The notes under the pieces are model-generated. The model was not told where the DNA came from. It saw only the letters and a list, made by a program, of their open reading frames with translations, and searched no databases. A program made the translations under genes and the position numbers. 64,000 nucleotides of DNA, from positions 9,637,560 to 9,701,559 of the forward strand of contig HG738140.1 of NCBI GenBank assembly GCA_000499405.2, given 5' to 3'. This document shows, piece by piece, positions 2,601-57,559 of this stretch. Origin of the DNA: Onchocerca volvulus (Eukaryota; Nematoda; Chromadorea; Rhabditida; Onchocercidae). Position 1 is the stretch's first letter. Each line of letters opens with the position of its first letter.

Positions 2601-3044
2601 TGAGAAAGTGACTAAAATTGATTCAAAAATAGACTTCGATAAACTTTTCCGGTAAGCACTCATCAACAAGAAAGGGTTGAGATAGTTTTTTATAAAACGA
2701 TAAATTCAAATTCTTCTATTCAAGTTCCTTTTTTTGCAACCTTTAAGCGCAATGATACATCTTAATTCAATAACAGATGGTGGCATGTGGCAGTGGCATG
2801 GTGGTTTGGATAGGGAATGTCATTGAAGTAATGATAATTGCAACAGCATAAAGATTTTTGCAATTATGCATTCATGTCTACTTGAATAGCAACTATATTT
2901 AATATCTTTTCCTGGAATTAAAAAATAATTAAATCGGTAAATTAAGTCTCGCTTCAAAGTTCAGTTTTGTTATCTTCATTTAGTTTGGAGAAATATTTTC
3001 TAAAATTAATTTAAAAAAAAGAAAGGGTCGTATAGTGGCTTGTT
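2601..3044. other. Spacer between inverted arms
   Basis: This is about 440 bases of AT-rich DNA separating the two arms. I see no reading frame or repeat of note. The exact inner ends of the arms are uncertain by some tens of bases because similarity fades gradually. Confidence 0.55.
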
Positions 3045-4200
3045 CTATTAAAAAAGAATTTTGTTGAACAAGTGATGTTAAAAATTGACTAAAGAAGTTT
3101 GTACAGCGATTGCATTTTAAACTTTTTTTTAATCAAAGCAAAACGCTAGCAACTGTTGATTGAAAAACAAAAAAAGGCATAAAAGTACTGGCAGGATTGA
3201 ATGGAATTAATTTAAAAATAAGTAACTGCCAACAAATGGTTCTTGTGCTGATACTTCGAAACTGCATTATGAAGGCAAATGTGACTCATCGATTATTTTT
3301 ATACTTCAATCGGTTTTTAGGCTAGAATGATATCAACTTTCCCTTGTATGCTATAAAATCTAACTTTCCCACAAAAATTTTACTTTCAGCTGTCCACTGT
3401 GTTTTCTCAGAATTGAATTGAAGTCCGTTCATTCCTTTGTTTCTCAACAATTTAAGATTATATTTCAAACCTTTTTTTATTTTTTTTAATATAATGAAAC
3501 TCTCATATAATACTTATTATTAAAGTAAATAATTTCTTGTCTTCATCTGGCACATTCATAAAAATAGTTGCTAACTATAACTTTGTCAAAAATGGCAAAA
3601 TTTCTTCAATATGCTGTATTCAACATTTTACAGGATGGAAAAGTTTTTACGTTCGTAGTTATGGTATATATAACGATTTTTAGTACAGAAAGCAATAATT
3701 GGTGAAAGAGAAACTGGTGAAATGCAAATAAATGGAACTGAGTTTTTGATCAGACAAATGAAGAATGTAAAAGTTGACTCTATGAAAGAAACATATTTAA
3801 ATGAATTCATTTTAAACGAGTGTTGCATCACTAAATTTTTTCTTTTTCTCCAGACAATACTCAGTATATGGAATTATCCGTTCCACGAATATGACTTAAT
3901 ACTGTTTCGCTTAGCTTAATTCTAAAAAAGAAACTCGTTTCCATTAATTCAGCAAAATCAGCAGTTTATCCATTGTCTTTGATTGTCAACACTGCAAGTG
4001 AAAGACGAATTATTGTAGACTCGGTCATCTTCTCCATCTTAAAAAATGTCGCATTCTTGAGGAAGGTTAAAATTGACAGGTTACAAATTTCTTCTTGATT
4101 TCCATTTAATCCATGCAGTGCGATTCCACAAAATTGGCAATAACTTCAATTAAATACTTAATCATAAATAATATTCCAGATTGAGAGTAACATGTATCTA
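3045..4200 (-). repeat. Right arm of the large imperfect inverted duplication
   Basis: This is the inverted partner of 1530-2600. It keeps the outward-facing frame matching the left arm's 1558-1785 frame (here plus strand, about 3915-4100). The counterpart of the left arm's 2427-2669 frame carries stops here. Weak similarity may run on to about 4235, which would leave the arm ending roughly 100 bases from the mreB-like fragment. Confidence 0.85.
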
Positions 4201-4329
4201 CCGAAATGTATTATCACATTCTTTTTAATGTTATCGTCTAGGAGATCTATATTAAATAATCTGATTTGATTTGATGAAAAACCACTTTTTTTTTGTTACA
4301 TATATATATATATGTATGACTTTACCAGA

Positions 4330-4650
4330 TAAAACTATCCTCTTATCAACTATATCAGAAGAAAGCTCAGGAGGAGTACTCTCTAATGCTGTCCCAATGG
4401 CAGAGATTATTTGATGCACAAACTCTGTTAAACTTTCTACAACCTGATATTCTGATAAAAGCACCTTTTTTGGCATACCGCTCACTAAGTCTCTGCCTTT
4501 TACCATCATTTCCTCTTTATTATTTTCACTCGGTAAACTAGCTGAACCTAGGCTTTTTTTAATTTTTTCAGCTATTGTTTCACCAATCAACAAATTACCA
4601 TTTTCACGAATGTATGACTTTATTGCAAAGAGGGAATGATATATATATTG
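4330..4650 (-). pseudogene. mreB: Wolbachia-like mreB fragment in nuclear DNA (lateral transfer)
   Basis: The minus-strand frame encodes about 100 residues that follow the C-terminal half of bacterial MreB, the actin-like rod-shape protein. Recognisable in order are AIKSYIREN, LLIGETIAEKIKKSLGSA, MVKGRDLVSGMP, a helix ending in ALESTPPELSSDI, and VDKRIVLSG. In MreB this last motif runs into a glycine-rich GGG; here similarity stops abruptly at LSGK and becomes low-complexity AT DNA. At the N-terminal side the frame stays open to 4806, but the match becomes ragged beyond AIKSY, where the actin-like phosphate-2 region should be. No start, stop or catalytic N-terminal half is present, so this is a fragment and not a working gene. 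Animals lack MreB. The alpha-proteobacterial wording and the nematode setting point to Wolbachia. The single bacterial insert sits between AT-rich flanks and close to the ALG6 3' end. Confidence 0.85.
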
Positions 4651-4985
4651 TGTGATTATTATGACTACTGCCAGGCTAGATACTATAGCTGTTATAATAT
4701 AATTGATTGTTCCTGTATATATTATACGATTTATCGCAGTTATCATTCGTTGATATATGTGTGTGATAAAATTAAAGATTATTTCCGATTGAATTTGAAA
4801 AGACAAAAATTTATTACAAATGAAAAATTGGATAAAATAAAAACCAAATACAATTTCTGCATGCTGGCAATAACTGCTATAAATTAGAGCTTTACAGTTT
4901 CAATTAACACTAGCTAGCACTAGCAATAAATCATATGGATTGTATTCAAGCAATAAAATGGCAGAACCAAAAAAATTACTGCGCA
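4651..4985. other. Short intergenic stretch downstream of ALG6
   Basis: AT-rich DNA between the mreB-like fragment and the stop codon of the minus-strand ALG6 gene. Its part nearest 4985 should contain the ALG6 3' untranslated region and polyadenylation signal. I see no other feature. Confidence 0.5.
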
Positions 4986-7900
4986 TTAGAATCCATGAAC
5001 TGAAATAAGGAAAGATTCTACAATTTTCAACTTCCTAAACTTGAATCTCAATATAATCAGATTAATATACAAGAAAAACATTATGAAATGAATGAAACAA
5101 TAAACTGCTATTAAGAGAGAAAAAATATGAGGAAATCGTGTTGGTGGCGTAAAAAGTAAACTTGCCAAACATAATATTAACGATATCAAACAGCTTCCAT
5201 GAACAATCAGTTGCTAAAAATAAATTCCATCAATCCCGAGATATATAAAAAAGTGGCAGTAAACTTAAGGATAATTCATGTAATACTGATACTGGAAAGT
5301 CAGACAAACCTTCGAAGACCAAAACTTTTGGAATAAAAAACTTTATTTCAAATAGATGGCAATTTTATTTTAAAAGTACCTTAAAAATCGGAAGTTTTGA
5401 GAATGATGAATATGTAATAGTATAATAAAAGATAAATAATGCTAGATGAATAGCATTGCCATCTTTGATGCATAATGGATAAAGGCTGAAACAAAAAAAG
5501 CATACTTTCAAGAAACTAGTTAAATAATTTTTACCTTTTTTAATCCACAGTTAACTGCAAATAGAAAAACAGAAAGAAGATTCCATTTGCGCAAAAAAAA
5601 CCATATTTAAAATAACTTAATGACTGCACTCTTTAAGGGACAGCATAAACACTCATTAATTTGTTGTGCTTAATACAAGAAACTTAATAAATTTGAAGCA
5701 TGAAAAAGCTAAGAGGATATTGGAAAATAAGAAATATAAAGATTGAGCTTCATCCCTTTCCCGCTTTTCCTTCCTTTCTCCTCTCCCTTTTTTTTTTTTT
5801 TTTTTTTTACAAAATGAGGACTATAGTGAAATGCTTTTTTATCATCTTTTTTTTTCATTTTGAAAGGATTCATGTTACCATAACATTAATTTCAGGTATT
5901 TTTGACAGCTAAGTTAATCAATAGAACTACATCTGTAATCTATACTAAATAAATGAAATTATTAAAATGTCCAATATGTGGCTTCTTAGTAATAATTTTT
6001 CATTTTAAAAAAGATTGTTAAATTCAATAAGGGTGAAGAAATCAACAAAAAATGCAATAACCTCGTATTTGAGATGATTAATAGCCAGGAAACAAATGCA
6101 GGATTCTCATTCCATAACAATATAGCAGGCCTGTAATAATAAGCTATTAAAACAAAATAATTTAGATCTCTTTAAGATCTAAGATATTATAGAATTGAAA
6201 AAAAAAGCCAAATAAACTTACAGTGCTACAAGAAGAATGGATTTTTCATGAACTTGAAATGAAAACAAAAAGAAGGATAGACTGGATGCCAATAAACTAT
6301 ATTTAAAGTTGGTTATTGTCGGACGATAAAATAAGCATAATAAGCAGGGAATATTCGTTACAAAAACCGCTATGGTGCTAAAAACAAAAATTTCGTAAAT
6401 CATCAGATCCACTAGTAATAAAATTTAATTGCGATTGCAAACAAAAAATCTAACCGAATTAAATTTTAAAAAACAAAAAATTGAAGGTAGATACCTCACG
6501 CGCAATAAAACGAATATTTCAAAATTACTTTTCAATTTGTATAATATATTAATAGCACACCAAAAATTCGCCACTTTGTCCTAAATAAATGTTATTTGAC
6601 AAAGCATTTAATAACTGTATCTTGAGAAAAGATAGAAATATTAAGTGAAGAAATTTTATTTTTATACCTCGAAAATACCACGATAAAATGGGAAAATCCG
6701 ATGCAAAATTTGTATTAAATCAGATCTGGTGACAAGAAAAGGAAGCCAGACGAACAGAAATGTAACAGTGACAGTAATAAATATTACAAATAATTGCTTT
6801 GCCCATGAAAGATATCTGCAGAACATAAAATCAAACTAAAACATAAAATCATGTTCATCTCGTTCCCCTTTAATAAATAAAAATAATATATGCCACTACA
6901 TATTTTTTCTCTTTCGCTTCTGTACTAACAAAATTAAACGAAAAAACCTCTGGCTCGTGATTAGTCGATTATTACTCGGAAATGATCTTGACAATAAATA
7001 AATCGCAACCGGTAAAGCATGATATAACTCCATTTGCTTGAAGTTTAGTGCTAGTACAAAAAACATTGAACCAAGTTTAAAGAAACTTGAAACAAAGCAA
7101 GCGAATGAAAAGAGGAATAAACCAAGTGATACGTGATTGTATCTAAAACCATAAATAGCTAAAATACGATACAAGAAATTTGCTCGTTTAAAAAAAAAAT
7201 GCATGAAGAAAAAATTTTTTTTGCAGTAATTTCTAATAACGATAACGGGACAAATGCTATAAGTTTAACCTTGTATGAAAGAAAAAACTGAAGTTTGAAT
7301 ATTTCCGGCCAGAGAACTTAATTTAAATAAGAAGAATCATATATGAAATATTTAAATGAAAAATTCAAAACCAACTGAAAATGGCCATTATCCACTACCA
7401 ATAATCCTGGATAGAGCACAGCTACAGCACAATAATTGAGCTGCAATACAAACGTTTTTAACCTGGTGCCTTTTTGGAATTGATTAGGAATTATCAAAAC
7501 ATTGATCATAGACATTATTTTTGAAAAAACTAGGAAGTCTTATCTGGTTTTAAAAAGTATTCATAAAATAATTATCCATTTTTATAATTTTAAAAAAGAT
7601 AACTTCAAGTAAAACTAGCCATTCTATGAGATACAGTGTAGCGGAAGAAACCAATTGAAAGTAACAACGAAGAAACATAAACTATCCAATAAGTTACTAA
7701 AACAGTAATTCGCATGAAGATTTTGTGAGATTCCGTCTCGATTCCTCTTGATATATGTAGTTCGACCCATGAACGATTCAGCTTATTCGCTCTGAAAAAT
7801 TATCTTCTGAATTAAAGGTAACAATAAAAAACAATACTGAGGAGTAAATTCAGATGCGAGCTCTCAAATCATATAAATAACTCAATACTATTTTGAAAAA

Positions 7901-8971
7901 AAGTAAAACCAATCACAAAATTACATACATATAATGTGTTATATAATCAAGAATCACTACATTGCTGTATAGTGATTCTCGATAATACGACACATTTTTC
8001 AATGATCTTGTATAAAAAAATCCTATCTTTAGTTTTTCAATCAATAAAATATTAAACAATTATTGCTTATAGTAATCGGTTATTAATACTGTTGTAAGAA
8101 AAATCTATGTTCATGCATTCAGTTTATATCTAGTTATTATAATAACGGTACTTAAATTCAAAACTAACTGGAGAAAAATACGGATGGACTTACATACTGC
8201 CGAAAAGCCAACTATGATAAGCCGTCAGAGGTGGATAATCTAATCCCCAATAATTCAAGTCATTATCACTACCATTTATGTACCTATAAAAACAATTAGC
8301 TCTGGCATAGTTCATATCAAAATCTTATATTTACAGAAAGATTTAGGGAAAAATACGACCGTAAAAGATTTGAAATTGTTAAGAAGATACTTCTTATTAA
8401 GAGAAACTTAAAATATGCGTACAAAAAGCCCTAAGCTAAAGAAATTTAATTCATTTGAGTAAGCAGCCTGGAAATATGTGATGGCCTGTAAGAACAATCT
8501 GACTTATCAATAAAAGTGTATGATTACCACTGATTAACAGGCAAATGATATGTGATTTCCATCCAATGTCTTTGAGCTTCATAATCACCATACATCGGCG
8601 GAGTAGCATGACCTGGAAGACGGTTTCTTATTAAAAGAATAAGGTACGAGTCAGGTGTGTCAAAAATATCATCAATAGCACAACATGAAGAAGCAATATA
8701 AAATCCTTTCTTTCTAGCATTTAAAATGTAACGAATTTATTTCAAATGTGGTGTGAGCGAATGAAAAAGATCTGAGAAATGAATGGTAAAGAAAGTAAAG
8801 TTATTAGAATCATTTAACTGATGAAGATTTGGGTAGAAACAAACCAGAATATGACCCCAATGATAACGCAACCTGGACAGTGATAGCGAAGCATAGAAGG
8901 GCAAGGAAAGATGCTTGATCTGTCGTACTGATAACAAATCTCTTCTTATTCTTGCAGCATCCCATCTCCAT
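4986..8971 (-). CDS. ALG6: ALG6, dolichyl-P-glucose:Man9GlcNAc2-PP-dolichol alpha-1,3-glucosyltransferase
   Basis: Adds the first glucose to the lipid-linked oligosaccharide on the lumenal side of the ER, before N-glycan transfer. Twelve exons: 8971-8845, 8612-8528, 8283-8194, 7791-7635, 7440-7376, 7142-6930, 6815-6668, 6580-6495, 6377-6222, 6130-6062, 5485-5380, 5213-4986. All phases close and give 509 residues, close to the roughly 507 of animal ALG6. Motifs: [13 protein letters not shown] near residues 51-63 with the family's lumenal acidic residue, [14 protein letters not shown] near 82-95, [19 protein letters not shown], and [16 protein letters not shown]. Many hydrophobic segments fit a multi-pass GT-C fold. 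The start at 8971 lies 8 bases after a tttcag acceptor, suggesting trans-splicing; ATG at 8965 is a possible alternative. The least certain junction is exon 4 to exon 5 (7635 to 7440). ALG8 is a relative, but the wording fits ALG6. Confidence 0.94.
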
Positions 8972-9786
8972 CCCTTCTCCTGAAACATCGCACGAACTCA
9001 AAGGGTCATCCTCGAAGTCACCTGTCCATCCCATCCTACCTGACCAACTCCAACCTGTCTTTATTCCTTTCACCGCTATTTGTACCCAAACCCATCTCCG
9101 TTATATATCCGTTTGCCTTTTGAGAGTTTATCTCTCGAATTCCCATTCATTTTTCTTTCTTTTCCTTTGCTTTTGCTCTTTTACTACGGAATCTTATCAG
9201 TCCTTGTCTTATCTCCAATTTCTACGCTATTTGTCCATTGTTCGATAATCATTAATCTCTAGCAATACATTCTTTTTCTCTGGACTGATGCATCAAATTT
9301 CCCTTTGCTCATTTGAAAAATCTATCTGAAAACTTAACACATTCAACGCAGTGTCTGAGTTTATCCAGCATTTTTGATGGAAATAATGCTTGAGAATTCT
9401 TGCTGCTATCAAGAAGAGCAAATTAATATATCAATGATTTATCAGGTGTTTACCAGAATGCCAAAATATTAATCAAATTGATAGAAATACAATCATTAAT
9501 TAGCTTCTATTTAAGTTTCGTTGTTTTTTCTATATTATAAATGGTTTTTAATGAGCCGCTTGAATGTTTTTACCGAAGAGTATTTTTGTTACAAAGATGA
9601 GTGTAACTGTGTTTGGACATGAAATAAATACATGTCGAAGATTGTTTTTTGCAAAAAACTTCAGGTAAATGAGGAAGATATTGTCTATCCAAAATTTTTT
9701 TTTCTCTGAATATGCAGATTTTAATACTTCAGAAGCAAAAATATAGCGATCAGAAATTCGGAAAATTTTTCAATATATATTATAGA
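8972..9786. other. Intergenic DNA between the COMMD-like gene and ALG6
   Basis: Contains a pyrimidine-rich block at about 9090-9250 and the probable ALG6 leader acceptor near 8980. No coding exon could be supported. The two flanking genes read in the same direction, so this is also the place where an operon-type intercistronic region would lie. Confidence 0.5.
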
Positions 9787-15262: not shown

Positions 15263-16285
15263 TTTGAAAAGCTAAGCGTCGCGCTTTCATGATAATAAAA
15301 CCTTTAAGAGCAAATGAAAAAATTATAACAAATTTCACAAAAATAAGTAATCTTATACATACGGCATGCTTACCTCAAAAATAATTAGTATTACTAAGTT
15401 GTTTTTTACTTAAGCTTGATCTATTTTTTAACTTGCTAAACTTCACCTTGTTTTTATCACCAATTTCTATCTTTGTTTTTTATTATTTTTCCTACTCCAG
15501 TAAAAGATATATTTCAATAAAAACGAGAATGCGGTTCAACCCACGCAAATTTGACATATCCTAAAAATTATATAACCATTCCATATTTGTTTGTATCACC
15601 GCAGTTTCTGTTTCATTTTGACGCTCTAAGCTGTTTCTGTTGAAGAACTGATAAAGAAATTTCGCCGTACTATGCGAAAAATTCTAAACGAATTTAAATT
15701 TAGGAAAAATAAAGTTCAAAATTAAAAGTAGGTACAGAAAGAGAAACGCATTAATAAATAGAGCAAACATAGCAATAACAAAAAGTTGCGATCAATTTCT
15801 ATATGTTTGCATTAAAATTGTTGAAAAGATGATCACCAACACTCCAAGAGAGTAAATTTCTCTCAAAACCATTCCTCCACTCAATTAAGTGGCAAATTTA
15901 TGTCATAGAAACGTGAGAGTCAAACAACTTATTTTTGATCTTAATTATGTTAGTGCGGATAATGATCTCTTTGAATGGCCGATACACGAACGACGACAAC
16001 CATGCAAAAATAACGCAGATCAAGGGGATGGCATATCGATAGAAGAAAGATGACAGATGCCAGTTGTCCTCGATTGTCCGATCAGTGACATATCGACTAT
16101 CTAAATATTGTGTGTTCTATTGTTATTCTGTTATCTGTCTTCTTAATTTTGATTTGCAGGATTTTTCAATCAATTGACAGGATCATGTGACTTAAATGTT
16201 ACATTCTCCAAATACAGTTCTTCCAGAAGTTATCAGAAAATAATAAATATTCTATTAATAACGATATCTACGACATAGCTCCACG
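15263..16285. other. Upstream region of the P450 gene
   Basis: About 1 kb of non-coding DNA. It should hold the promoter of the plus-strand cytochrome P450 gene, but I could not pick out a specific regulatory site. There is no spliced-leader acceptor immediately before the ATG at 16286. Confidence 0.4.
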
Positions 16286-30260: not shown

Positions 30261-33200
30261 TAAGTGATATTGTTTGTCTATCTCTTTTGTCGCATTTGAT
30301 GAAAAATCAGATTTATAGAGAAATAGTTCGGCTTGTATATTTGAATGATATAATTTAGTGATGTGTTTGGATTCATCGAAATCATAAAAACCAGTTTTAA
30401 AAATTATTTCATTCAATTCTGTCGTCTCAATTTTTGTATAAAAATAATATTTGCAACACGTAACCATTATTAATTAATGAAAGAGTAACTTTATTACTAT
30501 AATTAATTAGTAAGCGATGTAGTACATAATTTCTTGTCTGAGTGATTATTTTGTGTTCAATTCTTATTAAAAAATTCTTATAAATAATTGTAGCACAAAC
30601 TAACAATCGATTATAAAATATGTTGTTGCGTTCATTTAAAGTTTCAAATTTTTCACTCTATGATTAGTTACAGTGCAACAACACTTGATATATGTGTATT
30701 AATGTGATGTTTTGAAATTCATCCGATTTATGATCAAACCTGCATTAAATTATTACTTTATTCAAACCAATTATTCCGCTACTTTTGTATTTAAACAAGT
30801 AATATATGAAAGAAATGATGGATGAGTCAATCAAAGGATGCAATCCTTTTATTTTGCTCTTTCCACGCAATTCTTAAACAAATTTTGGTGGTTTCCAGTT
30901 TTGATTTGGAAAGTTTTTGCAAAATATTAGGAATTTTTGGGATTTGGAGAAGAAATTGAAATTGAATTTTAAAATAAAGGCGGAATTATGGAAAATTAAT
31001 TTCGAAATATTTATGAAAATATCAGTAAGAATCTCAATACTTGTCATTAATCAATCTGATTTCTTAACTAAATTATGAATTTTTGTAGTATTTAGTTGTA
31101 ATCTTATCATACTTTTGCATTTTTTGCTTAGTTCATGTTATGTACAGAATCAGTAGAAAGTTTTATATTAAATATATTTGATAGTGAAAAATTTATCTGT
31201 AGAAAGACATTAAATAAATAGAATGTGGGATTCGTAGCAAGCAGGTGGAACAGGTATCACAGCAACGATAAGCAAGTAGCAGAAAGTTTCAAATGGAAGT
31301 GCTTCTGCTGTCTGTAGAGAGAAGGTCGTAATTAAGAGATGAAGTAATTAATGCAACAGCAACAAATAGATGCTAATATTGCACAGAATGCAAAAGAATC
31401 TTAGATGAAATATGGACAGTTCAGTTGCTCGTTTGATAACTGATTTTGTCGTTTTATTTCTTGCCATCTGCAACAGTTGCTATCAAATTCATTCATCGTT
31501 TTAAGCATTGGAAGCACAACAAGTATCTAAATTGTTGCCATCGGATATGGCGGATATCTTGTCTATATGAGAATCGTCGCCTCAGGGCATGGCAGACATT
31601 TCGTTCATATGAATGAGTTATCAGTCAGTTATCAGTTTTGCAGTAAAGAATGACTGAAGAGGCAATAAAACTGTGAAGCGAGCTAATAATGGCAAAAAGT
31701 TTCGTCACTCTCCTTGCAATATCATCAAGTGAATGATTTGGTATGAATGCAAGAAAAGAGAGTGGAATACTTGGTGACAACTTGGAGACAGAGAGGACAA
31801 GCAAGGATTTACAAAGAAAAAGTATCAGAAAACGATCAAAAAGCAGATCTGTAAGCCATTTTTGGTAGCTTTCGTCTACTCATTTAGACCCGTTTTCTCA
31901 AGCATCTTCATCATTACCTGCTTTCAACTTGCTCTTCTCAACCTAAAAATGATAAGCAATAGGAGATGACAAATAAAAGGAAGAAAACACTCAAAGAAAT
32001 ACCCTGATGCACACAATCATACATTTTTCATGGGTATTCTCCTGCATTTGCTTTTTTAGAAATATCCGTTCTTTCGTTAAGAGAATACCTAAAATTGACA
32101 TCTCTTACACTTACTTTTGTTCAATTCCAGGTCATCTTTGTAAGTAGCATAAGGAGATGATCTCCGTGAAACATTCCCATCTTTATCAATGCAACAGGAA
32201 CGCTTTTATCAAAAATTGCTGCATGCATACAAATATTTCATAAAATTGAAAATATCAATCCTTTTTAGCTCTTCGTTTGCTTGATTTAAAAAAATAATTT
32301 ATGAAGTTTCGATACGACGCTCTAAGAATTGCGTCTGATCTTGAAAAAATTATTAACTCTCTTTTTTGAGCTAATCTGAAGTTGATTTTATGATTAATTC
32401 TAATCATAGGTAGTAGACATATGATCCATGGCTTTGGAGCAAAATATTGTAGCATCTTCGACAACATTGAATAATGAAATTCAGATTCACAATACGCAGA
32501 TTGGTTGCACTTCCTTGCTATTGATAACGGTGAGTTGATTTTTCCTGACAAATATTATGGTTCGATGTTCAGTTTTTTCATTTTACTTAAAAGAAACTTT
32601 TCTAAATAAAGACGCAACAAATAATTAACAACATCATATACTTTGACGCATAATATGTGCTTTTCTATATATACTGAAGTTTGTCTCATTTGCAATATTT
32701 TCTACTATCATTTTCATATTTATTGCTTCTTATCTTAAAGTAATGACATCTACTGTAAAAAAATGCTCACATATCATTTTCTGTATTGAAAACTTCGAGT
32801 TTCAAACCATTGAAATCCTGAATTCTAAGCTCTGAAATCACGCTTCCAGATCAGATATATTTAAGATTCTTTGAAGTTCATTGCTGAGGACTATTGCCTT
32901 CAGAAGCATTATGTCTTTTCTGATGTCAAAACAATTTTCATCAATAAGTGCAACAGAATTTATTATATATGGGTAGTCTTAAAGTTCATCATAAGTAAAG
33001 TGCGATGGAAAGAGATGATTTTGTTCATGTCAAGCCGTGGTACCGACAAATTCATTGAAATTGAGCCTGATAAGACTTTATCAAGTTTGGTGAAAAGAAC
33101 TGATTAATCTATCAGTTACTTGCTAAGTAAATCATAAGTAAAGTGAGATGGAAAGAGATTGGTATGTTTTCAAGTTGAACGGCGATAACTTTGATGTAAA

Positions 33201-35954: not shown

Positions 35955-37008
35955 AGAATATATATCTGAAGAGTATGTGGATAATATTTCCAAAATATAT
36001 AATTTTTAAAAAATAAAAAATTGCTGCTGAAATTTTATTATTTTGAAGCATTTCAGGATATTAAATTTTTTTTAAATGAGAAGTAATCACATGAATGAAT
36101 TGATTTTCATGCAAACTTTAAATTAGTAAGATTCCTCTAATTTTTCAACAAAAAAAGAAAATAATTTTTTGCCCTGTTTATAGCATATTATGCGAAAGAT
36201 AATTTATGGTTTGGAGTGTGAAGAAATTTGGAGTAACTACAACTTAATGGTACTCCATCCAACTCAATGGTACTTCATCTGGAAGTGATGCTGCCTTAAA
36301 TTATTGCTTTTGTAAAAAATGATGTATTTGATTTGCTGTATAGTTATACAAAATATTAAACAATAAATTTAATAATATCATGTGATTCATTATCAAATTT
36401 TTATCAAATTTTTTTATTTTTTTTTGCCTGTTTTCTAATTATCTTCAAAAGATATTTTGATTAGGATATTATTTGCTATTTAAAAAGTTTAATTACGAAA
36501 CAATCAAAACAATAAAATGAAATGATGAAAATTTGATAAAGAATCATTCATTAGTTTTTTAGAGACGAAATACATTGATCTATAGCGGTTTTTTAGATTT
36601 TTGATCAAACTAGTCGATCATGTCATTAGGGTTTAATGTGTTTTATCATAACTGTTCAGACTTGATACGTTGTTCCGAAAATTATGGTGTAAACATGTAA
36701 GTGTATTTTTCTAAGTTTGAATGATTCCTAATATAAATAAATGAATATTTTGTTTGAATCGCTATTAGTATATTTATGTGAGCAGCAATAATGCATCAAT
36801 GTGAAATTTTATTATTCAAATTTTTAATTTATGTTTCGCAAAATTATGTGAAGCACAGTATTCTGACAATTAATGAATAAATTTCTCACTGGAATTCTGA
36901 AACCACGAAATACTTGGGAATTATTTCTAATAAAATTCAAGAAGTACTACTATTATTGCTGTACTATTCAATAAGTATACTTTTCAATAAAAATAGCATT
37001 AGAAAGAA
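35955..37008. other. Convergent intergenic region
   Basis: AT-rich DNA between the 3' ends of the plus-strand Pax-like gene and the minus-strand phosphatase. The only visible structure is a tandem 20-base pair at about 36239-36280 (aacttaatggtactccatcc, then a near copy). Confidence 0.5.
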
Positions 37009-39994: not shown

Positions 39995-40038
39995 TGTGCT
40001 TTCCTTCTTGCTTTTCCTCTGTAACTCTTTCTATTCAT

Positions 40039-40103
40039 TTTCTGCTGTTTTACGTCATTACGAGTTTGGCAATTAAACTTGAAATGACGTAAAACAGCAG
40101 GAA
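40039..40103. ncRNA. Near-perfect hairpin, candidate pre-miRNA or foldback
   Basis: Arms tctgctgttttacgtcatt and its reverse complement pair without a gap for 18 bases. After a single A/A mismatch the pairing continues for seven more (cgagttt with aaacttg, one wobble), leaving a seven-base loop. The outer end adds two or three pairs, giving about 28 paired positions in about 65 bases. The size and small loop match an animal miRNA precursor. It lies 45 bases upstream of the phosphatase start, so on the minus strand it could be in that gene's 5' leader. The arm contains tgacgt, a CREB/ATF half site, so a regulatory palindrome is another reading. Confidence 0.45.
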
Positions 40104-41818
40104 CTAAACTTAATATTACAATTCATCATTTGTTATCATCTGTTGGTCGTTCAACTGTCAAGTTTAACTTATTTAGTTATTCACTATCTTTCCCATTTCT
40201 TGCATTTATCAGAGGAAATTAAAATATTTTGCAATTTGTTCAAACCTTTCAATGGCACTTGGAATATATCAGAAAAAGAAAAAACACTGGCTCAATTCAT
40301 GACAAAAACTACTACAATTTTTGAAAATTCTGTAACTTTATTATTTTGACCATCATATTCAACAAAAAACATCGATATCTAACAAAAAAACATATTATCA
40401 GTGCAGGAATCCCAAACCTTTCAAACTTCCACCTTCAACTACTCACGTAACATTCCGAAACTTCAGACAGACAAACTCACCCTTCTGGATTTCTTGCGCT
40501 TTACCATCCTGCACTCCCGACACTAACTTCATCTAATAATGACTCTTCACAACTGTTCAAGTCTTTTATAATATGCAAAATGTGCAAATATAAGACATAA
40601 TTTAATAGTGTCTGAAACATAAATGAAAGAATTAGAATTCATTCAGATATTTTAAATTTTGCATTATATAGAATGACTTGAAAAATAAACACAGTGCACT
40701 AGAATTCCAAAATGTTGCTTAAATTGTCTGATATCCTTCTTAACTCATACACAGCAGTACAACCATTAAAACTTTCTTTGATTAAGAATCTCGTACACTA
40801 ATTACAACATCGCTTATGCTGTTAAATGCTTGAGTTTCATCACAGTAAAGACTACAGAAAGGACCTCAATGGCCTAAAAGATCTAACATGTAATAATGAT
40901 ATATTTAATGTAGAAATTATTTCGATGTTCAGTCACTTACAGTTTCAGATTTTCTTTGGTGAACGAGCGAAACTTCTGCTCATATGTATGCAGTTGAATT
41001 GCATTCTAGAAATTCAGGAAAAGATATCACACAAACTGTAGTAAGACTATTTTAGAGAGTAAAATCCATAAATGTTGTTAATATAATCTAATACATATAA
41101 TGAAACATTAAATTCCAAGCAGTGAAAATCAGTCAACTACAATAGACATTGGAATTAATTTATGGACAACTATTAAAAACAATAATTCAAGGTAATAACG
41201 AAGAATTTTTTCATTCAATATTTCCACTTTATTAATTTATTTAAGCTTCTATCAAATCCGCATAATGAATTGCGAACAACTCGTGAAGATTAAATCACAA
41301 GAACGTTTTCTGAAGTATGGAAAGACTGCCACTACCATACTTATACATTATATTCACAATTTCCATATATTATAACGCCAATTCAAACTAATTAATTTTC
41401 ACATATATGTTATAATACTAATCCAAATTTATTATAAACATCATAATTGGCAGGATATTAAAATCTATTTCTTCTTTTTCTAATAACTTACAAACAAATC
41501 CCACATTAAAGGTGAAAGGAAGTAATCCTTAAAAGCAATAGTCTAGGACATAACCATTCAATTACGAATTTTATTCCGATTCATTTGTATTTCCAAATAA
41601 AAATCCAAATATATACAAAATTAATATTTATAAAACATCGAAAAATTTTAAGTAATAAGGAACAACGGCAAACATATCTGCAAATATATAGATAATACAG
41701 ACAGTGAACATATATTTGCACGCGCATATTAAACTAATTGAAAAATAATCATTTTAATCGATGTTAACTCACGTTGCAAAAATGGAGAATGCAGTTACAG
41801 CAAAATTGGAATGAAAAA
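40104..41818. other. Intergenic region between phosphatase and TTC9-like gene
   Basis: About 1.7 kb of AT-rich DNA, upstream of the phosphatase and downstream of the TTC9-like gene, both on the minus strand. Open frames at 40143-40349 and 40826-41041 have no motif. I see no defined regulatory site. Confidence 0.5.
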
Positions 41819-44537
41819 TTAGTTTTGCTGCTGGAGATTCAAGCGATGTTCGCTAGATGAATTCGCAGTAGCATTCCCATTCATTGTTATTACTTGATTC
41901 GCAACACCAACATTAAATTCCTGTAATGATGAAATACGAGATGAAATTATCAAATAATATTCAACTAATGCTTGTTTTATGAACAAACTGATTTAAAATA
42001 AATGATGCACAAATTGATTTTGCCAAACAGTTCATACAATTTGCATATGCATATCGCCACAATAACCGATATAATGCAAAGCAAATGCTGATTGATTTCA
42101 ACGCATTTTTTTTACCGGTAGCTAAAGATTTTAAACAAATATGAGCTCACATTTTTTCTTGGAATTACAAAGTTTTACAAAAACATTTAAGTAATATTTT
42201 GCAAAAAATAGTAACTACAGAAAATCTGCAACAAAAAGTTTCAAAGATATCACTGAGAAGAAAGTTTAACCTGTAGCAAATGTTGACCATTTATTCTAGC
42301 TCCAAATGGACGTGAAAAATTACGTCGAATTTGATCATCTCGCCGTCGTCGTTCTTCTGCTAATAACTGCTGACACTCTTCAATTATTATTTGTGCTCCA
42401 CGGTCTTAAAGTTATCGAATTCAAGTTTACTATTTATCATTTCACATGAGATTTCAACATGGATTAATTCTCAATTAATAACAATTACTTATCAATTATC
42501 AAAGAAACAATCACTTTATTTTAAATGTTTCCTATTAGGAATGAATATAAAGAGCCACAAGAGAATGAACTAACAGAGTTATCATAACGGCAAGAACATC
42601 ATTAACATATGAACGTCATTCAAAAAGTAAATGAATACAAAAACATACTACTGCAACTGCATTTTTGCAGTACTGCAATTGCTTTTTCGTACATGTTCGC
42701 TTTTGAGAGCGCCAATCCTTTACGATATAAAGCTTTTTCATTCGAAGGTTGCATCGACAACACCTATGAAAAGGTTTGATTACATAAAATCACAGAAACT
42801 GGAATTATTTGAAAATTTTGCGTTCTCAACTTGAAACTTTTGCTGAAAATTCTTAAAAACTATTTGATTCAACTCAGTCAAAGAGAATAACATTGACTAA
42901 TAGTTGGTTTATATATATATATATAGTAACTAATACCATCATCACCACTATGATTTACCTTGTCACAGTATTCCACAGCACGAAGAAAATCGGATTCAGT
43001 TCGATTCGGCCCCTTCAAAATGCATGCTGCTAAATTATTGTAACACTTCAATGTGATATCAGTTGCTTCTGTTTTCATTTCTTCACCTCGACTTGTTGAA
43101 CTGATTCTTCTGCGCCTTCCAAATTTTTCTGTATTCTGTATCTAGTATAGAATAATGAGAAAGACATTAAGAATCAGTATAACGAATAAAAATATAATAC
43201 AGCAAGGTACAGAAGAATTAGTCATTCTGAATAAATAGAATAAAATTTGAAATCCTTATCTTCTAATGATATTAAACACGGAAGATTGTGAGAAGATAAA
43301 TGTGCTGCATATCTTACATAACTTTCATCATAAAAATGGGACAACTATCATTTGAATTGGTACGATAAGCAAATGCCAAACAAAGCTTACTGCTAATTCA
43401 CTAGTAACATCATTAACATCAACAACTCTACTGCTTCCTTCCATACTTCCACTTTCTTCCTCCTCGTCTATCGTCTCATCAATAGTGCGTTCTATACGAG
43501 CCAAGTCTAAAAAAGAATGAAATCTTGATAATATTTGATTTCAATAGAACAAATTAATAAAGTAACAATATTTAGCGTAATACTAATGCAATGATTCCGA
43601 TCTTGTAGTCATTAAAAACTTTTGAGAAAACAAAAGAAAAACTGTTTTTAAAAAGAAAAGATCTTCAGTTAACTATTAAGTTGGTGATCCCCAACGATCT
43701 TCCAGTTTTTTCAAAAAGTATTAAACTGGATGTAATTCAGAAAATTAGAAAAAATGAAACAAACAGTCTGATACCAACTTTGCAATCCAAATGGTGAAAG
43801 CTGCTGAATCGCTCGAGCACGAAGTAAACATTGGTGATATAAATAAATCGCTGCACTGAAATTCTAACTTATGAAAATATCAAAAATTCAGCAATTGTGC
43901 AAAAAGATGCTAATACTCTTTATGGACATTTAGAATTAAGTGGCTTGATCTATGAATATTTAACAGAAGACTATAATAATTATTGAAAGTATGAAGTTAA
44001 AGATGAATATTAACAATAAATCGTGGGTCATACATGCATGTACGGACACAAATAAATGATCATAACGTGGCGGAAAAAATCAACGAATAATTTTATAAGT
44101 AATGATTCGATCATTCTGCTGCCAGTAAAACAGTGATAAGAGTCTAATCAAAAGTTTCAATCCTCATATATTTTATTTTCATTTTGGAAGCGACGGGAGA
44201 ACTATATTTGAAAAAATAGATATTGAATAAAAATGTACGCTGCTATTAACTTAAATTAAAATTTAAAGAATTCTCACAAAAACAGAAAGATTGAAGAAGA
44301 ACATACAAAAATAAAAACCTATAACATGAAATATTTATTAAACTACCTTTATTGTTAGGTAAAGAAGAAAAAACTTAGCGAAAAATCTCAAGAATGAAAA
44401 TTTAAGAAAAAAACTAACGCATAATTTTTTTCACTGTATCGAGCATTTGCTTGCTCCTTAAATCGATATGCTTCACTCAAACTGTAAGCATCTTGAACCG
44501 CCTTGTCCACTTTCGACAAATCAGAATTACTTACCAT
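41819..44537 (-). CDS. TTC9-like tetratricopeptide repeat protein
   Basis: Probable TPR scaffold that binds a partner protein, in the cytosol. Seven exons: 44537-44419, 43855-43779, 43506-43391, 43135-42959, 42763-42649, 42404-42271, 41920-41819. Phases close to give 279 residues. First TPR: AYRFKEQANARYSEKNYAAAIYLYHQCLLRARAI (split here by position, about residues 21-55). An acidic insert follows (ETIDEEEESG). A second TPR block starts near residue 118 with LKCYNNLAACILKG, continues RAVEYCDKVLSMQPSNEK and ALYRKGLALSKANMYEKAIA. This order and the YCDKVL/ALYRKG pair match vertebrate TTC9 best. FKBP8-type immunophilins also carry such TPRs, but no PPIase domain is present. The C-terminus is basic, then Asn/Gln-rich. 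The ATG lies five bases after a tttttag acceptor, consistent with trans-splicing. ATG is immediately followed by a perfect donor-like gtaagt. Confidence 0.75.
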
Positions 44538-47232
44538 CAACACTAAAAATCATGATAAATAATTGGCCAATAATCTTCCCATACCTGATTATGTCTAAAT
44601 ATCCGTCCGGTAACTTTCTTTACGGATAATTTTAAAAAAGAAAATGAGCTAAAAGAAAATGAAATTGCAAAAGCAATTCAGTCACAATTCCATCCACTTC
44701 TTATGAGAACATGTCGCTCTCTTTCTCATCAATTCAGCGAAGGCTTCATCCATACATCAATAAACTCAATGACATAAACATTCATCCCAAGCTTTCTACA
44801 ACTTCCCTCGTAAACAACGAATCTTGATTTCAAGCAAAGCTGGCATAAGTCCAAAACAGGTTTCGCATCATTGTTTACTCATTGTGCAAAATTTCCATCC
44901 ATCAATTTGTTTATATCGATAGACAAGAATTTAGTGGTTAGCCGATTAGTATAGCAAGATTTTACGCTGCATAAGTAAGCGGGTAGGGTCAGGTCACATC
45001 CACTTCATAGTTAACCTCATATAGAGCACTTCCTTCGCTCCCAAGGTCAATTCACTTCATGGTTGACCATTTTTATATAGAACACTTCCTCCCCTGAATC
45101 TTATATAACTACCGAAATCTATGTCTTTGCTAAAAGTTATTTCAAATACGAGAAATCATTCTCATTTACCCCCTTTCTCTCCGTAATTCCGAAGAAAATA
45201 CTTATGCCAGTTTACAAAAATTGTAAAACAAGACCATTGAATGCGAGTCCAGAAAAGTACAGCAGGACTGTTCAATGATATCTGTATGTATTGTATTGAT
45301 TTAGTTTTCGAAAATATTCGAAATATCATGAACTAACACATAACAGAGTGAAAGGCAATCAAACATAAAGCAAACACACTGCAAATCCATCTGGATATGG
45401 TTACCGCATATGCGTGCATGCATGTCCATATGAAGTAGTGCATGTTTAACGTTTCGTGTGAATTTCAGTAACTGCACAGATTTAGCAGATTTTCTTCAGT
45501 TTCAGATACCTTTTTTAGCGAAGCATTTCAATCTGATTGTAAAGTACCTACCAATTAACACAATCTAATGACTTTTATGGTATCAAAGCTTCATTCCTCA
45601 GATAATCAGTTGTTGAATTTGATAAAACATTTCAAAAATGTTTGAAATCATTATAGCGATATTTAGTTTGGTTTTTTCCATGGATTCAGTGGTAGTGATT
45701 GAATGGTGAGGCACGTTATTCTTATTATTGTTCTAGATAAATGTAGTATATTAGAACGTTCTGAACATAAAATTTTCTTACTCGTCAATGTTGATAGCTC
45801 GTTTATTTCAAGAACTGACTTTAACTTATTTATATAAGTCTGCAAACAGACAGAGTGGTTTTTGTCTAAAATATCACTGAATCGGTATTTGAAATCTTGT
45901 CTTGCTTGATGTGAAGTCAAATGAAAGAAAATAATTAGGCGAGGATGAGTGTGGGAAATCGAATTAACAAGGAGCAGTAATGAACCTCAAAAAGGAGAAA
46001 GACTTCTATTGACATAATCCACGTGTGTTTTTAGGAATTGGCACAAATAATAATTGCGATAAAGAATTTATTGATTGACGGAGAAATGATTCTTTGTCTA
46101 CGTTACGAAACAGTGATTGGGAATGTTCAAAAAAAATTGATCACTAGGTTATCCTTTTCTTTGTCGCTCGTAGAGATCGCGTAGAAAAGTGCCACTCAAC
46201 TGAATTGCTTCAACTTTGTCTGGCATCGAAGTCCTGAACTTTTAAACCCTTCGAGCGCTCCTTTCTCTTGAGGTCAGCTTACATGAATTCCAATGTATCT
46301 TCTCTCATAATTGATCGAATGGAAGAATATTGCTCCTAGTCTTGGACGAGATATCCTATTTGTAACGTAACTAAATGATTTTAATTCTTTATATAGTGAG
46401 AGTTCGTTTATAGTTCAGACCAAAAGATAATAGAGGATAAATAAATCAATAATTATTCATGTGGAGACCAAATCGAAAGATAAGACAAATGAATTTACTA
46501 GTTATTTCAAGATACAAATACTTTGGTTATTTTAACAAATAAATTTGCAAAATATTTATAAGGGAACTATTCCGGCATCGTTAAATTTTGGAAGCAATAT
46601 ATACTGACATCGATAATTGAATTTTATATTTCATTTGTAAGTCCATACTGAAAAATGAAAGCTAAGAAAAAATGTTTCCATCTCAAAACATTTTCTCGCT
46701 AAAAAATTGAAATGGGAAAAAGAAAAACTAACGCAAGTATAGCTCTAAAGACCTTTTTTGAAAATTTTTCCAAACAAAGGAGCATTATTAATAATATCAA
46801 GTGTAAAATAGATATGTAAAATAGAGAACAGATAAGGATCTTGTTTGAATATCATGATTAAAATTTTCATTATTAATCAATAAATGACAAGTATTTCAGA
46901 ATGACATGCAATATTCATAGATTTCTATCGGTTCTGACATCGCTAAACCTTTCAAATTGGTAAGTCAAACATTTTTTTGTCTTTTTTGCGCGAATAGTTA
47001 ATTACTAAAGTAATCAAATACTTTCAATAATCAGCAATAATATGTGCAATACAAATTTCATATTTCATTTGATTTCATTTCCATGCTGTTATATTATTCT
47101 TAACTAAAGCAAAAAAAATTTAGCTGAAAAATTATAATAGATCTTACTGAAATAGACTTGTTATGATAATGTTAATATCATATGAAATTACTAACGTCAG
47201 AGAAATAACTTATTGACGGAATATTTTTGCAG
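44538..47232. other. Intergenic DNA upstream of the TTC9-like gene
   Basis: No supported gene. Around 44998-45090 there are two diverged copies of a cacttcatagttaacc-type unit followed by a tatagagcacttcc motif. Frame 45663-45920 (minus) has no motif. Confidence 0.45.
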
Positions 47233-47397
47233 TTATTATTAGTATTGTTGCTAGTCATATTGGCAGCATCCGGCAGCAAATCAGGCTGGTGCATTTGGTT
47301 AACGCTTATTTTACAGCTTATTAGCATGTCACTTATCATTTTCAGCCTGTACACAGAAACTGATAAATTATTTTCAGCCAGAAAATGGATCATTTTC
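47233..47397 (+). CDS. Orphan exon-like frame encoding two hydrophobic segments
   Basis: A 55-codon frame is bordered by a good acceptor (tttttgcag) and a good donor (gtgagt), phase 0 at both ends. It starts with a leucine-rich run (LLLVLLLVILAASG), then SGWCIW and a second hydrophobic stretch (LTLILQLISMSLIIFSLY), ending DKLFSARKWIIF. This looks like part of a multi-pass membrane protein. An upstream ATG exon near 46901-46960 with a gtaagt donor does not join in phase, and no downstream exon was found. The gene model is therefore incomplete or the exon is a relic. Confidence 0.4.
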
Positions 47398-48239
47398 GTG
47401 AGTAATTTTAATCAAATTATAAGCATTAATCAATTAACGCTCAGCTTTTGAATGGATCGAAATTTATTCACCGCAATTAAAGATAGTGAAAAGCAATTAA
47501 ATTCTAATTTCAAAATATATTTGTTCTTTTTATAGATCAAATTTTTTTACTTTTCATGAATATGCAATGGTATAATCTTGGATTTACATGACCTAGATGA
47601 ACACTTTTTTTCGGGTTCATCTGTACACAGTGTTTTATTCTCATTTTAAATATAAAAAAATTGAAAAGAAATGAACTGAAGTGTTCCAATTGTCAGAATA
47701 TAAGTCTCAAATCTATACATCTCTCCAAATTTTACTCTTGGCCTTCCAACTTTCATTCTAAATCAATATAAATTATTGTCTGCTCTTAGCAAATTTGATT
47801 ACATCATCTAGCTGATAGTCTAAATTGAAGGCACATCTAAGATGCAATTGGCATAATAATACATGGAGACACTCAAGTACAACAAAGTGTTGACAATGAG
47901 AGGAGTGCCAAAAGAAGAGTAATTTTACATGCTCTGACTTTGGATTCAAAGAAGAAAGAAATGTTATAGGAAATGTTCCACTCATTTATATTTGTTGCTG
48001 TCAACCTCACTGACACGATTATAATGGTTTCCAAACTGTTTCGCCTTCATTATGCTTTATTCGTGTTGCAGCGGTTATTTATTTTGATAAATTTGGCTCT
48101 TTTTTATTTTAGCGAGATTAAATTAGAAGATAAAGCAATATTCGTCTAATAGTTTTAATGGCATTTTGTTTAGTAAGTTTTGAATACTCCCCAACTAATA
48201 GGACCAACAATTAAAAATCAAATATGGTAAGATGGCAGG
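47398..48239. other. Non-coding stretch
   Basis: AT-rich DNA in which I found no further exon of the 47233 frame and no repeat. Confidence 0.4.
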
Positions 48240-49169
48240 AATGACTGCTAAACCATCCCAACTATGACAATTGATGCTCACTCATGAACTGCGGCAATCG
48301 TTCCCTGAGTAAAACTTCACGTCAAGACTAATATGCCGACGTGACTGTTGAGCAATAATGTGCCTCCCCTCCTGAGGAGACAGCCAAAAATTGTTCCCCG
48401 GGTCTTGGACAAGGCCCTGTATAAAGATTAGACATCTCCACCCCTCTTTACGCATAATCATTTCATTAAGCATCCAATGATCGATCGGTTGTTAAAGTAG
48501 AGTGCAGAGAAAAAAAGGACACTATCTCGTCCATACATGATGGTTGGTGGATTTTTTACTTGTCTCTTCAAATTTCTGTTGTCGCTCAAACATTGGCGAA
48601 TAGTCCGTTGATTGTCGTAGCGGGAGTGAAAAATCTATTGGCATTACATAAGGGAAGGCAAGTACTGTATTAAGTACGAAATCAACTGCTGGTGATGACA
48701 TGATGTGACATGACGTGGCTAACGTGACGTAAAGATGACGGTGGTGGATGATAGATGATGGTAATCCGTGCGTGTATAAATTACATAGTTTCTTGATTCC
48801 ACTGCATTTCATTTTGTAGAAAGTTTTGAAGATGTCAGCTACGCGATCAAGATGTCGATGATGAGGACTGTCATCTTCCTTTATCACATTCGTTTCCCCT
48901 TGAAAATACAAGAATTTGCACGTTTACAAATATTTCCAGGTATTCTTCTTTGGTCGGACGATAATAGATGGAGTAAATGGAGGAATTCTTTACAATATAT
49001 GGATGCATAAAGGTGCTCATCAGATGTCTATTCTCCAAACGTGCAAACTGGTGATTCAGTTGCTGTAAATCGTAGAGCAGATAGAATTGCCGTTGGTGTT
49101 GTTTTTCCGGATTCTATTTCACCAGCTTCCAGCAACTATCCGTCATCTACATTCCCAACATATCCATGA
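48240..49169. other. GC-richer block with long open frames of unknown nature
   Basis: Base composition is visibly less AT-rich than the flanks. It holds a 129-residue minus-strand frame (48522-48911) and a plus-strand frame from about 48900 to 49169, broken only by one TAA at 49008-49010. The plus frame reads LLWSDDNRWSKWRNSL before the stop, and after it VYSPNVQTGDSVAVNRRADR, ending in a Ser/Pro-rich tail. I recognise neither. Short hairpins (cctcccctcctgaggag near 48362) and a gacatgacgtggctaacgtgacg motif near 48710 suggest an RNA or regulatory element as alternatives. Confidence 0.35.
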
Positions 49170-52100
49170 ATTTCCCAGATCAATCCATCGATTTATTATG
49201 CAATAATAATGTTGATATATTCTTCAATGAGTTGGCAGTTGACAATTTCGTATAATTTTTTGCTACAGTTTGGTACTAAATTAGCCACATAAAACAGGCC
49301 AAGTTTGCACTTTTTACAGTGCTATGCTTTATAAGTTATTTTTTGGCTACCAAGACATCGTGGTCAGCAAAAAAGACTAAAATTTTTTTTAAAGCTAAAA
49401 TTCCCGTCTTTCATAATATTTTGTACAAATAATTACAGATATATAATCGGCAAATCAACTACGATTATCAAAATTTACAAGATCACGTAAACAAAAATTT
49501 GGAAATAAAATTATGTAAACAAAATATGATTGCAACACTATGTTCACGCAATTTTTTCGTAGCAATAATCAATGAAAGATTGCTTAAACTTCGAAAAATG
49601 GAAATGAATTCTAAAAATTATCAAATTCGACTATAATAACATAACATATCAATCATTTTTGTAACTTAGAACACCTGTCTTTTTCCAGAATAATTATATT
49701 TGAATAGAATCTTTTTTCATTTCTGTATAAATTTTGAATTCGCCTGCAGTAATTGCTTTCTTTTGATGTACATTTGGATTTAATGACGGGTATTTCGTAA
49801 ATTTAGGATATTGAACTATAAGTGTTCTTCCTGTTTTAACTAAAAAAAACTTTATAAGTAGTTTTGTTGCAGTCTCACTTTTTTCCAAGAAATTTTGAAA
49901 AATAACTCAAAAATTTTTCAAGATTCTTTTAAAATATAATGAGACAAGACGTACCAAATATATTTCCATAGAAAATAATTTTACCAAGAGCTAAGTTTAT
50001 AATTTTAATTTTTTTTAAAATTTATTTATGTTCAATTTTATGAACCATACGAAAATGCTTGAAAACCTTTAAAAAGATCAATTAAGCGAAAATTAAGCTT
50101 TTTATGCCCGAATTCGACTGTAAACAGGAATCTGAATTGAAGAGGCCTGATTTTATTATAATAAAAAAAAGACAATGGAATGAAGATTATTTCTTATCAC
50201 TAGAAATAATGTCTATTCAAAATAACATAATATATTGGATGATACTAAATGCTACGATCATTCAGAATGCGTTTATTAAAATACAATCAAAGTTACGAGA
50301 TTTCAAAATTTCAGTTTTCAGCATAATATTGAATGTTCGATATTAGTCTGCGATTAATTCTGCATTGAACAGATCCAGACAAATATTTATGGAAATAAGA
50401 AGTCGTTTGATCTTCCGATTAAAAAAAAATTTACGAAATTCAAGAATAATTTCGCTGTTTTCTTATTTTTTTCATACCTTCGCAATTTGCATCTCTGTTT
50501 CGGACAGTACGAACTAGATAATTATTACATTGTTATATCCAATGTTAATTTAAATAGCAAGGACTTCATAAAGGACGAATAATAAAACGATAGTTTGGTC
50601 GCACAGTATATTTGAAATTCCGAGAATTCCAAGAAATGCTAGTGATGAGAGGTAACGGAATGTCGTAATGTGTCACTTCATCAGTTATTTAGTTGTTTAG
50701 ATCTTAAAACGGTGAAAAATAAATTTTCACAATTATTTAATTTTTGTCTCTTTCAATTTGTAAGGTTTTTTCCAAAGCGAAAATGAATCTATTTTGCAAT
50801 CAGCGGTTAGATGAAACTGTTTGTGTGGCACAACATTTAGTAGTATTCTCGATTACATATCATAGACTGTAACATATTGTCTAACTAGGTAAGCATTTGA
50901 TTCAGCATGTGATTATTTTATCGTGAATATTCGGGAAAATTTCAAAATTAACGAAGAATTTGATCTTATTGCAGCAATATGTAGCAATAGTTTAGCATGG
51001 ATTTTCAGAGGATTTAAAAGTGGAAGATATAATAATCTTGTGTGAGACGTGTTTCGAGCAGATTGCCTTTAATCAATTTCATTTTTTAATTCAAATTGAA
51101 GTCAAAGTTTAACTTTTCTTTGTTCGCTTGCCAACAAATGAGCGAATCTTTCGATTTTTCAAACGCAACATTTGTATTCATGGCAGTAGCTTTATAACGT
51201 AGAAAGCAATCAGCAAAGACTAGAGCTGGAGAGATAAGATCGATCGCCTTCAACCGCAATCATAATGATGATGATGATGATAACGATGATCATCATCATT
51301 ATCGTTATCATCTTTGCTATCGTCATCAGCCCACTAGTTGAAGGAAGAATGGGAGGAAGAGGAAATACCAATGGACAGCTGTAACATTTGCTCAGTCACA
51401 GCGTTGTTCCTGAAGCTGCTACTACTGATAGCTGTGGTAATATCTAATCTTTGTGTTCATTTTTTTAAACTTTATCGTTACTTGATGTGGCTTTGATTGG
51501 AAGTTCTCAGTAAAGTTAATTAATTAAGCTAAGGTAGTTTCATTTCAGATGCAAGTTTGAATTTCGAGGTCACTGTAAGAATAGAGAAGAAGGAACGAAA
51601 TTAGACTTAAAGCTTTTCATAATTGAAACCAAATTTTATGCATTGTTTATTTCAAATTTGAACTGATTTGCATGGGAATATTTGCTGTATCTAGACAGTT
51701 ATTGGAAATTGTATTTTACTCTTACTTGGAAATTGTAAGGAAAGCAATTAACTAGTTTTTTTTTTTTTTTTTTTGTTTTTGTTTTAGAACTTTCCGAATT
51801 TTCACATTCTTTGAAAATGTTGGGATTAGATTCAGATCATCAATTACTACGAGTTGATACCTTTATCTGCTCATTTTGTTTTTTTTTGTGTCAGCTTATT
51901 TATTTTGCTGAGCAAGTGACATTTCGAAAATACATTGTAGTGAGTGATTCAAGAAGAAAAGTTGGGAAAGCTTTTGATTGACTTTGAAGAGAGAATTGTT
52001 GAAATTGGGAGAAAGTTATGTGATTGGCCATAAGAGGGCTATAGAAAGATGAATTCAAAAAAGGAGACATGACATAGTAGATCTTCTACTGCGAATTTTT

Positions 52101-52307
52101 CATTTATGCAATATTTCCACATACATAATGCACTTAAATTTTTTTTTTCTCCATCTTCTATTCTTAAATCGTTTTTTCAACAAAAGCTAGTTTGTTAAAA
52201 TTTTAAATAAAATGCCTTTCAATGAGGTAAAGATGAACGACAGAATTTTAGCTTGTGACATATAATCGTTCAAGGATTAAGACAAGCAAGCCTTCGGCCT
52301 TTAGGTA
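49170..52307. other. Intergenic region upstream of the conserved unknown gene
   Basis: Mostly AT-rich. A candidate first exon, 51371-51436, starts MDSCNICSVTALFLKLLLLI and ends at a gtaata donor, but it has no partner. Just before it a GAT/ATC microsatellite palindrome at about 51263-51312 can form a hairpin of about 15 pairs. A T-run of 18 lies near 51757. Confidence 0.4.
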
Positions 52308-55300: not shown

Positions 55301-55498
55301 TCAAAAGTTCATGACTGCTTAGATAAAATTGCAAAATTCTTGATAAAAAATGATCCTGAATTTAAATGTGCTTTGATATGGAAAGGCAAAAATCATCTAG
55401 AAATTTTTGCTAAAACGAGTACCACTGGGGCTGTTTCACCTGGAGTAAAAGAATTGATGAAGACACAATGCAAAGAACTGGATGAATCAGAAGAATGA
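52308..55498 (+). CDS. Conserved protein of unknown function (resembles a fungal family)
   Basis: Exons 52308-52472, 52852-52944, 53354-53556, 54004-54198, 54862-55054 and 55196-55498 close in phase to give 383 residues. The ATG lies three bases after a ttag acceptor, so trans-splicing is likely. There is no signal peptide or membrane segment. Distinct motifs: SYQWYLNDETPTIIMPGMP near residues 42-60, FNDYNFITDAVNLQKLFAFA, GLFRIDAERVGKTVLLTR, then SYQFGQFKLLVRFEVDCAD. The C-terminal third has FPFFTWAQMFFTAADQ and a last exon with helical, lysine-rich text. From memory these motifs, in this order, recall fungal proteins often mislabelled geranylgeranyl pyrophosphate synthetase. No prenyl-synthase aspartate-rich motif is present, so that name should not be used. 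The function is unknown; the gene itself is secure. Confidence 0.82.
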
Positions 55499-56196: not shown

Positions 56197-56234
<38 letters not shown>

Positions 56235-56419
56235 ATACAGTACTATGGCAATCGAAATCTATGTACAATTATTTGTAAGGTAATTTAAAAAAAACTACGA
56301 GAAACTCCTAAAATGTGTGCACTAAGTTTCCCATTGGAAATTGAAAAAAGTCAGATGAATAAATCACGCAGATATCTCAAAAATCACTTCGTTTTTACCG
56401 AAATATGTAATTATTGTTT
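55499..56419. other. 3' flank of the conserved unknown gene
   Basis: AT-rich DNA containing a 32-base A-run at 56200-56231. No coding or structured element was found besides this. Confidence 0.5.
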
Positions 56420-57505: not shown

Positions 57506-57559
57506 GTAAGTTATACTAATTCTTTCTTATAACAAAAAAAAAAAAAAAAAAAATTGAGA

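Follow-up and report, generated by a model that had tools for sequence, protein, structure and literature searches.

How did part of a bacterial mreB gene come to lie beside a nematode gene, and what has become of it there? The locus is found in Onchocerca volvulus, in a stretch of 64,000 nucleotides (the window) that covers positions 9,637,560-9,701,559 of a 16,048,563-bp contig (C5) in the 94.7-Mb assembly. An earlier note had described it as a Wolbachia-like mreB fragment inserted in nematode nuclear DNA. This is almost certainly a nuclear Wolbachia transfer, or nuwt: a short stretch of mreB, derived from a Wolbachia of supergroup C in the Onchocerca lineage, would have entered a break in AT-rich intergenic DNA 3′ of the host gene ALG6, and would have undergone neutral decay since.

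Identity and extent of the fragment

Base-by-base alignment with the mreB gene of wOo, the Wolbachia strain carried by Onchocerca ochengi, delimited the fragment.

4324-4626, minus strand: Wolbachia-derived mreB fragment (nuwt), from blastn, base-by-base alignment, Pfam and tree

It comprises 303 bp, or 101 codons, with no stop and no indel. The earlier figure of about 100 codons was therefore right, while the span then given, 4330-4650, has to be replaced by the coordinates above. In blastn the best match was wOo (94.7% identity over 303 bp ungapped, E 1e-133) and the second-best named match was wDi, the Wolbachia of Dirofilaria immitis (90.1%); this ranking covers 80 of 238 loci, wOv, the Wolbachia of O. 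volvulus itself, not being among them. The search against Wolbachia genomes that had been suggested gave matches in 37 of 41, again with wOo at the top. The translated fragment matched the Pfam profile MreB_Mbl (E 1.5e-28), and all three significant matches in NCBIfam were to MreB. Blastn and Pfam matches of this strength cannot be due to chance.

The fragment corresponds to codons 206-306 of the 358 in wOo MreB, the other 257 being absent. It thus falls within the C-terminal half of the protein, as had been proposed, but does not represent all of that half, as the last 52 residues are missing. At both ends the identity with wOo is lost abruptly, and the DNA immediately outside the 303 bp differs from the neighbouring Wolbachia sequence. 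The coding end reads IVLSG, where wOo continues with three glycine codons that are absent here, which bears out the abrupt stop described at a glycine-rich motif. Compared with bacterial MreB (Pfam PF06723), the fragment shares 101 codons of the C-terminal half and differs in being no more than a fragment, which lacks a complete actin-like ATPase domain and is not a working MreB.

Setting in the host genome

The features of the surrounding DNA that bear on the locus are:

4976-9034, minus strand: ALG6 (alpha-1,3-glucosyltransferase), an intron-bearing host gene, from Pfam Alg6_Alg8 exon matches and UniRef mapping
4810-4815, minus strand: AATAAA (TTTATT on the plus strand), putative ALG6 poly(A) signal, inferred from sequence
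1529-2586 and 3056-4196, no strand assigned: arms (about 1.1 kb each) of an imperfect long inverted repeat, about 75% identical

On the evidence of the assembly the fragment lies in host nuclear DNA, in a 16-Mb contig with ALG6 adjoining and a nematode-type SmY RNA further along the window. The best database match of ALG6 was the O. volvulus protein A0A8R1TJF0 (UniRef; 89% over 92% of a rough gene model). When this protein was mapped piecewise onto the window, from 9034 down to 5106, five pieces aligned at 93.5-97.4% and four at 49-63%; the latter seem to be alignments across introns or past exon ends. The stop codon was read from the sequence at 4976-4978, closing a final short exon, FMDSNAQ-stop. 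Insertion inside ALG6 is ruled out by this mapping: the fragment starts 349 bp past the stop codon, on the same strand, and the AATAAA that lies between the two is likely to be the poly(A) signal of ALG6. On the low-coordinate side, inspection by eye of 11 open frames revealed no recognisable gene. The earlier description of the fragment as lying between intron-bearing eukaryotic sequence therefore holds for the ALG6 side, outside the ALG6 exons; what was seen on the opposite side is the inverted repeat.

The inverted repeat stops 128 bp short of the fragment. No second copy of it was found in the genome as searched, save for a 30-base match. Identity rises to 91-94% in inner blocks 226 and 84 nt long, and similar short open frames are present on both arms within the best-kept blocks. 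Elsewhere in the window, a gene for SmY spliceosomal RNA, a family known from nematodes, scored above the Rfam gathering score at 48360-48437 on the minus strand.

Junctions of the insert

Three features were seen at the ends of the fragment:

4312-4324, minus strand: 3′ junction copy TAAAGTCATACAT, which copies the 13 bases from the fragment's fifth base (4610-4622) and is followed by a TA tract
4297-4316, no strand assigned: self-complementary 20-mer on the low-coordinate side, which contains the TA dinucleotide tract and overlaps the junction copy
4627-4649, no strand assigned: high-coordinate junction, with 12 bases without assigned origin (4627-4638) and then a shorter TA tract

Read along the coding strand, the final ...TCTGGT of the fragment gives way to AAAGTCATACAT and then to the TA tract; the first base of TAAAGTCATACAT is the last base of the fragment. 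The copy was noticed post hoc. It is the longest exact match to the fragment at the far junction, at 13 nt, a length reached by about 0.2% of random 30-mers from the window. Copies of at least 11 bases were observed at 3 of 60 junctions (30 nuwt loci, the mreB locus included) against 0 of 120 control stretches; one of the three is at the mreB locus itself.

The junction copy, together with the TA tracts on both sides, suggests capture by end joining. The chromosome would have broken in the AT-rich intergenic stretch 3′ of ALG6, within a TA tract; a short piece of mreB would have been captured there by end joining, a short templated copy of the start of the insert being made at the far junction during repair of the break; and the insert would have decayed neutrally since. 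The junctions are well preserved and offer a modest hint as to the way in which the DNA of a symbiont gets into the chromosomes of an animal. The broader proposal that Onchocerca nuwts enter by templated end joining, with the mreB insert as a clean example whose fixation came before the separation of O. volvulus from O. ochengi, is a tentative one and rather unlikely to hold.

Two general preferences of nuwts for their site of insertion were also considered. TA tracts as a general target were rejected: among the 30 loci they were seen at the two junctions of the mreB locus alone and at 0 of 58 others, with a background of 85 in 7530 flank positions and 46 in 3190 window positions. A preference for inverted repeats was unsupported, since repeats of at least 80 nt within about 1.5 kb were found at 4 of 30 loci against 6 of 37 window segments. 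These 37 background segments overlap, two of the six positives being the repeat of the mreB locus and the other four being two features counted twice each; the mreB locus is one of the 30 and not one of the 4, the second arm of its repeat lying beyond the stretch examined.

Substitution pattern and alternative origins

Between the fragment and wOo there are 16 differences, of which 11 are nonsynonymous and 5 synonymous. When wDi was taken as the outgroup, 10 of these changes were private to the fragment, 5 lay on the wOo side and 1 was ambiguous. Nine of the private changes are nonsynonymous and one is synonymous, whereas wOo and wDi, over the same stretch, differ at 25 positions, 20 of them synonymous and the other 5 nonsynonymous (Fisher P 0.0002). 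A contrast of codon positions over all 16 differences pointed in the same direction, more weakly (P 0.022). Under neutrality a nonsynonymous share of 0.70 is expected, and nine changes in ten are compatible with it (P 0.30). The fragment has been released from bacterial coding constraint, and the pattern of private changes fits neutral decay. The earlier note had called for such a comparison with living Wolbachia mreB.

The note had also been correct that the frame is open, and this raises the possibility that the fragment has been domesticated, either because the surrounding open frame (184 codons; 215 from stop to stop) is expressed or because the fragment is part of an extended ALG6 3′ UTR. 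The open frame without indel would suit such a role, as would the position 349 bp downstream of ALG6 on the same strand. Yet the frame would be expected to stay open by chance alone with a probability of 0.82 after 10 random substitutions and 0.72 after 16, so its openness is no sign of function. The nine-to-one excess of nonsynonymous private changes also argues against domestication, as do the loss of 257 of 358 MreB codons, the likely poly(A) signal, which comes before the fragment, and the annotated O. volvulus ALG6 protein, which terminates at FMDSNAQ, upstream of it. Domestication is therefore very unlikely, and the fragment is most likely without function.

A chimeric assembly or contamination, in which a read or contig from live Wolbachia was stitched into a worm scaffold, appears more improbable still. 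A source was at hand, as O. volvulus carries wOv (Cotton et al., PMC5310847), and misassembly is possible at the TA tracts by the junctions. However, wOv and wOo are reported to be 99.51% identical genome-wide (PMC5310847), against 94.7% for the fragment and wOo. A stray piece of live mreB would therefore be expected to show about 1-2 differences from wOo in 303 bp, and 16 were observed. Nor would live mreB show a pattern in which 9 of 10 private changes are nonsynonymous; the sequence past the 303 bp is unlike the DNA next to mreB in Wolbachia, and comparable short fragments are dispersed over large contigs.

MreB and actin have a common fold, but the idea that the locus is a eukaryotic actin-like exon resembling MreB is refuted by 94.7% DNA identity with Wolbachia mreB over 303 bp, and a closer match to eukaryotic actin than to bacterial MreB was not seen in Pfam, NCBIfam or PDB, the last giving eight matches to E 3e-10 that were all MreB and six weaker ones (E 0.009 or above) that were designed or ribosomal proteins, with no eukaryotic actin in the list.

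Placement and relative date

The fragment paired with wOo, with support 97/94, in a 38-row maximum-likelihood tree and so nests inside Wolbachia diversity; its end branch is 0.053, against 0.012 for wOo. The rows were named Wolbachia and Neoehrlichia loci together with loci newly cut from the search of 41 genomes, the weakest matches being left out. Of the 25 sites that distinguish wOo from wDi, 19 carry the wOo base in the fragment, 5 carry the wDi base and 1 carries neither.

The changes on the wOo side, which make up 5 of the 16 differences between fragment and wOo when wDi is the outgroup, give some indication of age. Since wDcau shares the wOo base at two of these five sites and carries neither base at a third, three of the changes are fairly safe and two are doubtful. 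Given a 0.49% difference between wOv and wOo, the wOo branch should have gained about 0.7 changes after those two separated. By hand calculation, the Poisson chance of at least five is about 0.001, of at least four 0.007 and of at least three 0.04. On this reckoning the source lineage probably branched off from the wOo line ahead of the split of O. volvulus and O. ochengi, and the insertion is probably older than that split, an estimate that assumes a genome-average rate of evolution for mreB and is built on three to five changes.

The insertion may be of use as a dated marker. Should the source lineage have branched off before wOv and wOo parted, as seems probable, O. ochengi would be expected to share the insertion, and perhaps also O. 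flexuosa, which has no Wolbachia; were it present in the latter, it would there be a true relic of a lost symbiont.

Other Wolbachia-like fragments

The statement in the earlier note that filarial genomes carry Wolbachia fragments is amply supported in print. For the O. volvulus genome, Cotton et al. (PMC5310847) report 531 putative nuwts, 486 of them longer than 100 bp, mostly fragmented and largely non-functional; the same paper describes the living wOv, whose 956-kb genome was assembled alongside that of the worm. As O. volvulus is host to wOv, the suggestion that the locus might be a fossil left by a lost symbiosis does not stand. A 2025 study of 22 filarial genomes (Vancaester et al., PMC12693587) describes hundreds of supergroup C nuwts in Onchocerca, with a mean length of 434 bp, some groups of which are common to all the Onchocerca species examined. 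Its cases of lost symbiosis are Wolbachia-free species, O. flexuosa and Loa loa among them, whereas the host of the mreB fragment is infected. The fragment resembles the nuwts of the first paper in species, in source lineage and in being short, degraded and one of a dispersed set, and those of the second in its supergroup C origin and its shortness. The word mreB does not occur in the main text of PMC5310847, nor is the gene named in that of PMC12693587. Among the titles and abstracts listed by a literature search, none named an mreB nuwt in O. volvulus. In the respects tested, the locus is an ordinary member of a class already documented, and with hundreds of such fragments in print for the species a single one carries little weight.

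The same picture emerged when a single 20-kb stretch of wOo was searched against the host genome. There were at least 42 matches, the mreB fragment included, and the longest of those listed was about 500 bp; scoring took in 40 of the 71 first-look candidates, so that these are lower bounds. The matches are short pieces scattered across large contigs, and no intact copy of the 20-kb stretch was among those listed. No second full mreB and no live Wolbachia contig was found in the assembly, the 20-kb query giving short pieces only. One other mreB match was seen, of about 81 bp, on contig C2 at 14674924-14675006; it is 88% identical to wOo and more diverged than the fragment described here.

Further Wolbachia-like sequence was looked for in positions 1-60000 of the window with whole Wolbachia genomes, and two weak matches stood out. 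A 127-bp segment at 32988-33114 is 83% identical to a wOo gene which we take to be a malonyl-CoA acyltransferase (fabD). The other, at 15404-15513 (78% to wDi, E 1.8e-17), was not among the matches listed for wOo in the same search, where 40 of 126 candidates were scored. Matches at 2249-2280, 3038-3088, 3440-3469, 36136-36162 and 57283-57337 were put down as probably due to chance (27-56 bp, E 1e-4 or weaker), and in 40001-60000 none of four Wolbachia genomes gave a match, with 40 candidates scored per genome. Finally, 159 bp of a small contig (C81:2747-2905) are 100% identical to wOo, with a 13-base copy at one junction; this would be either a nuwt of very recent date or a stray piece.
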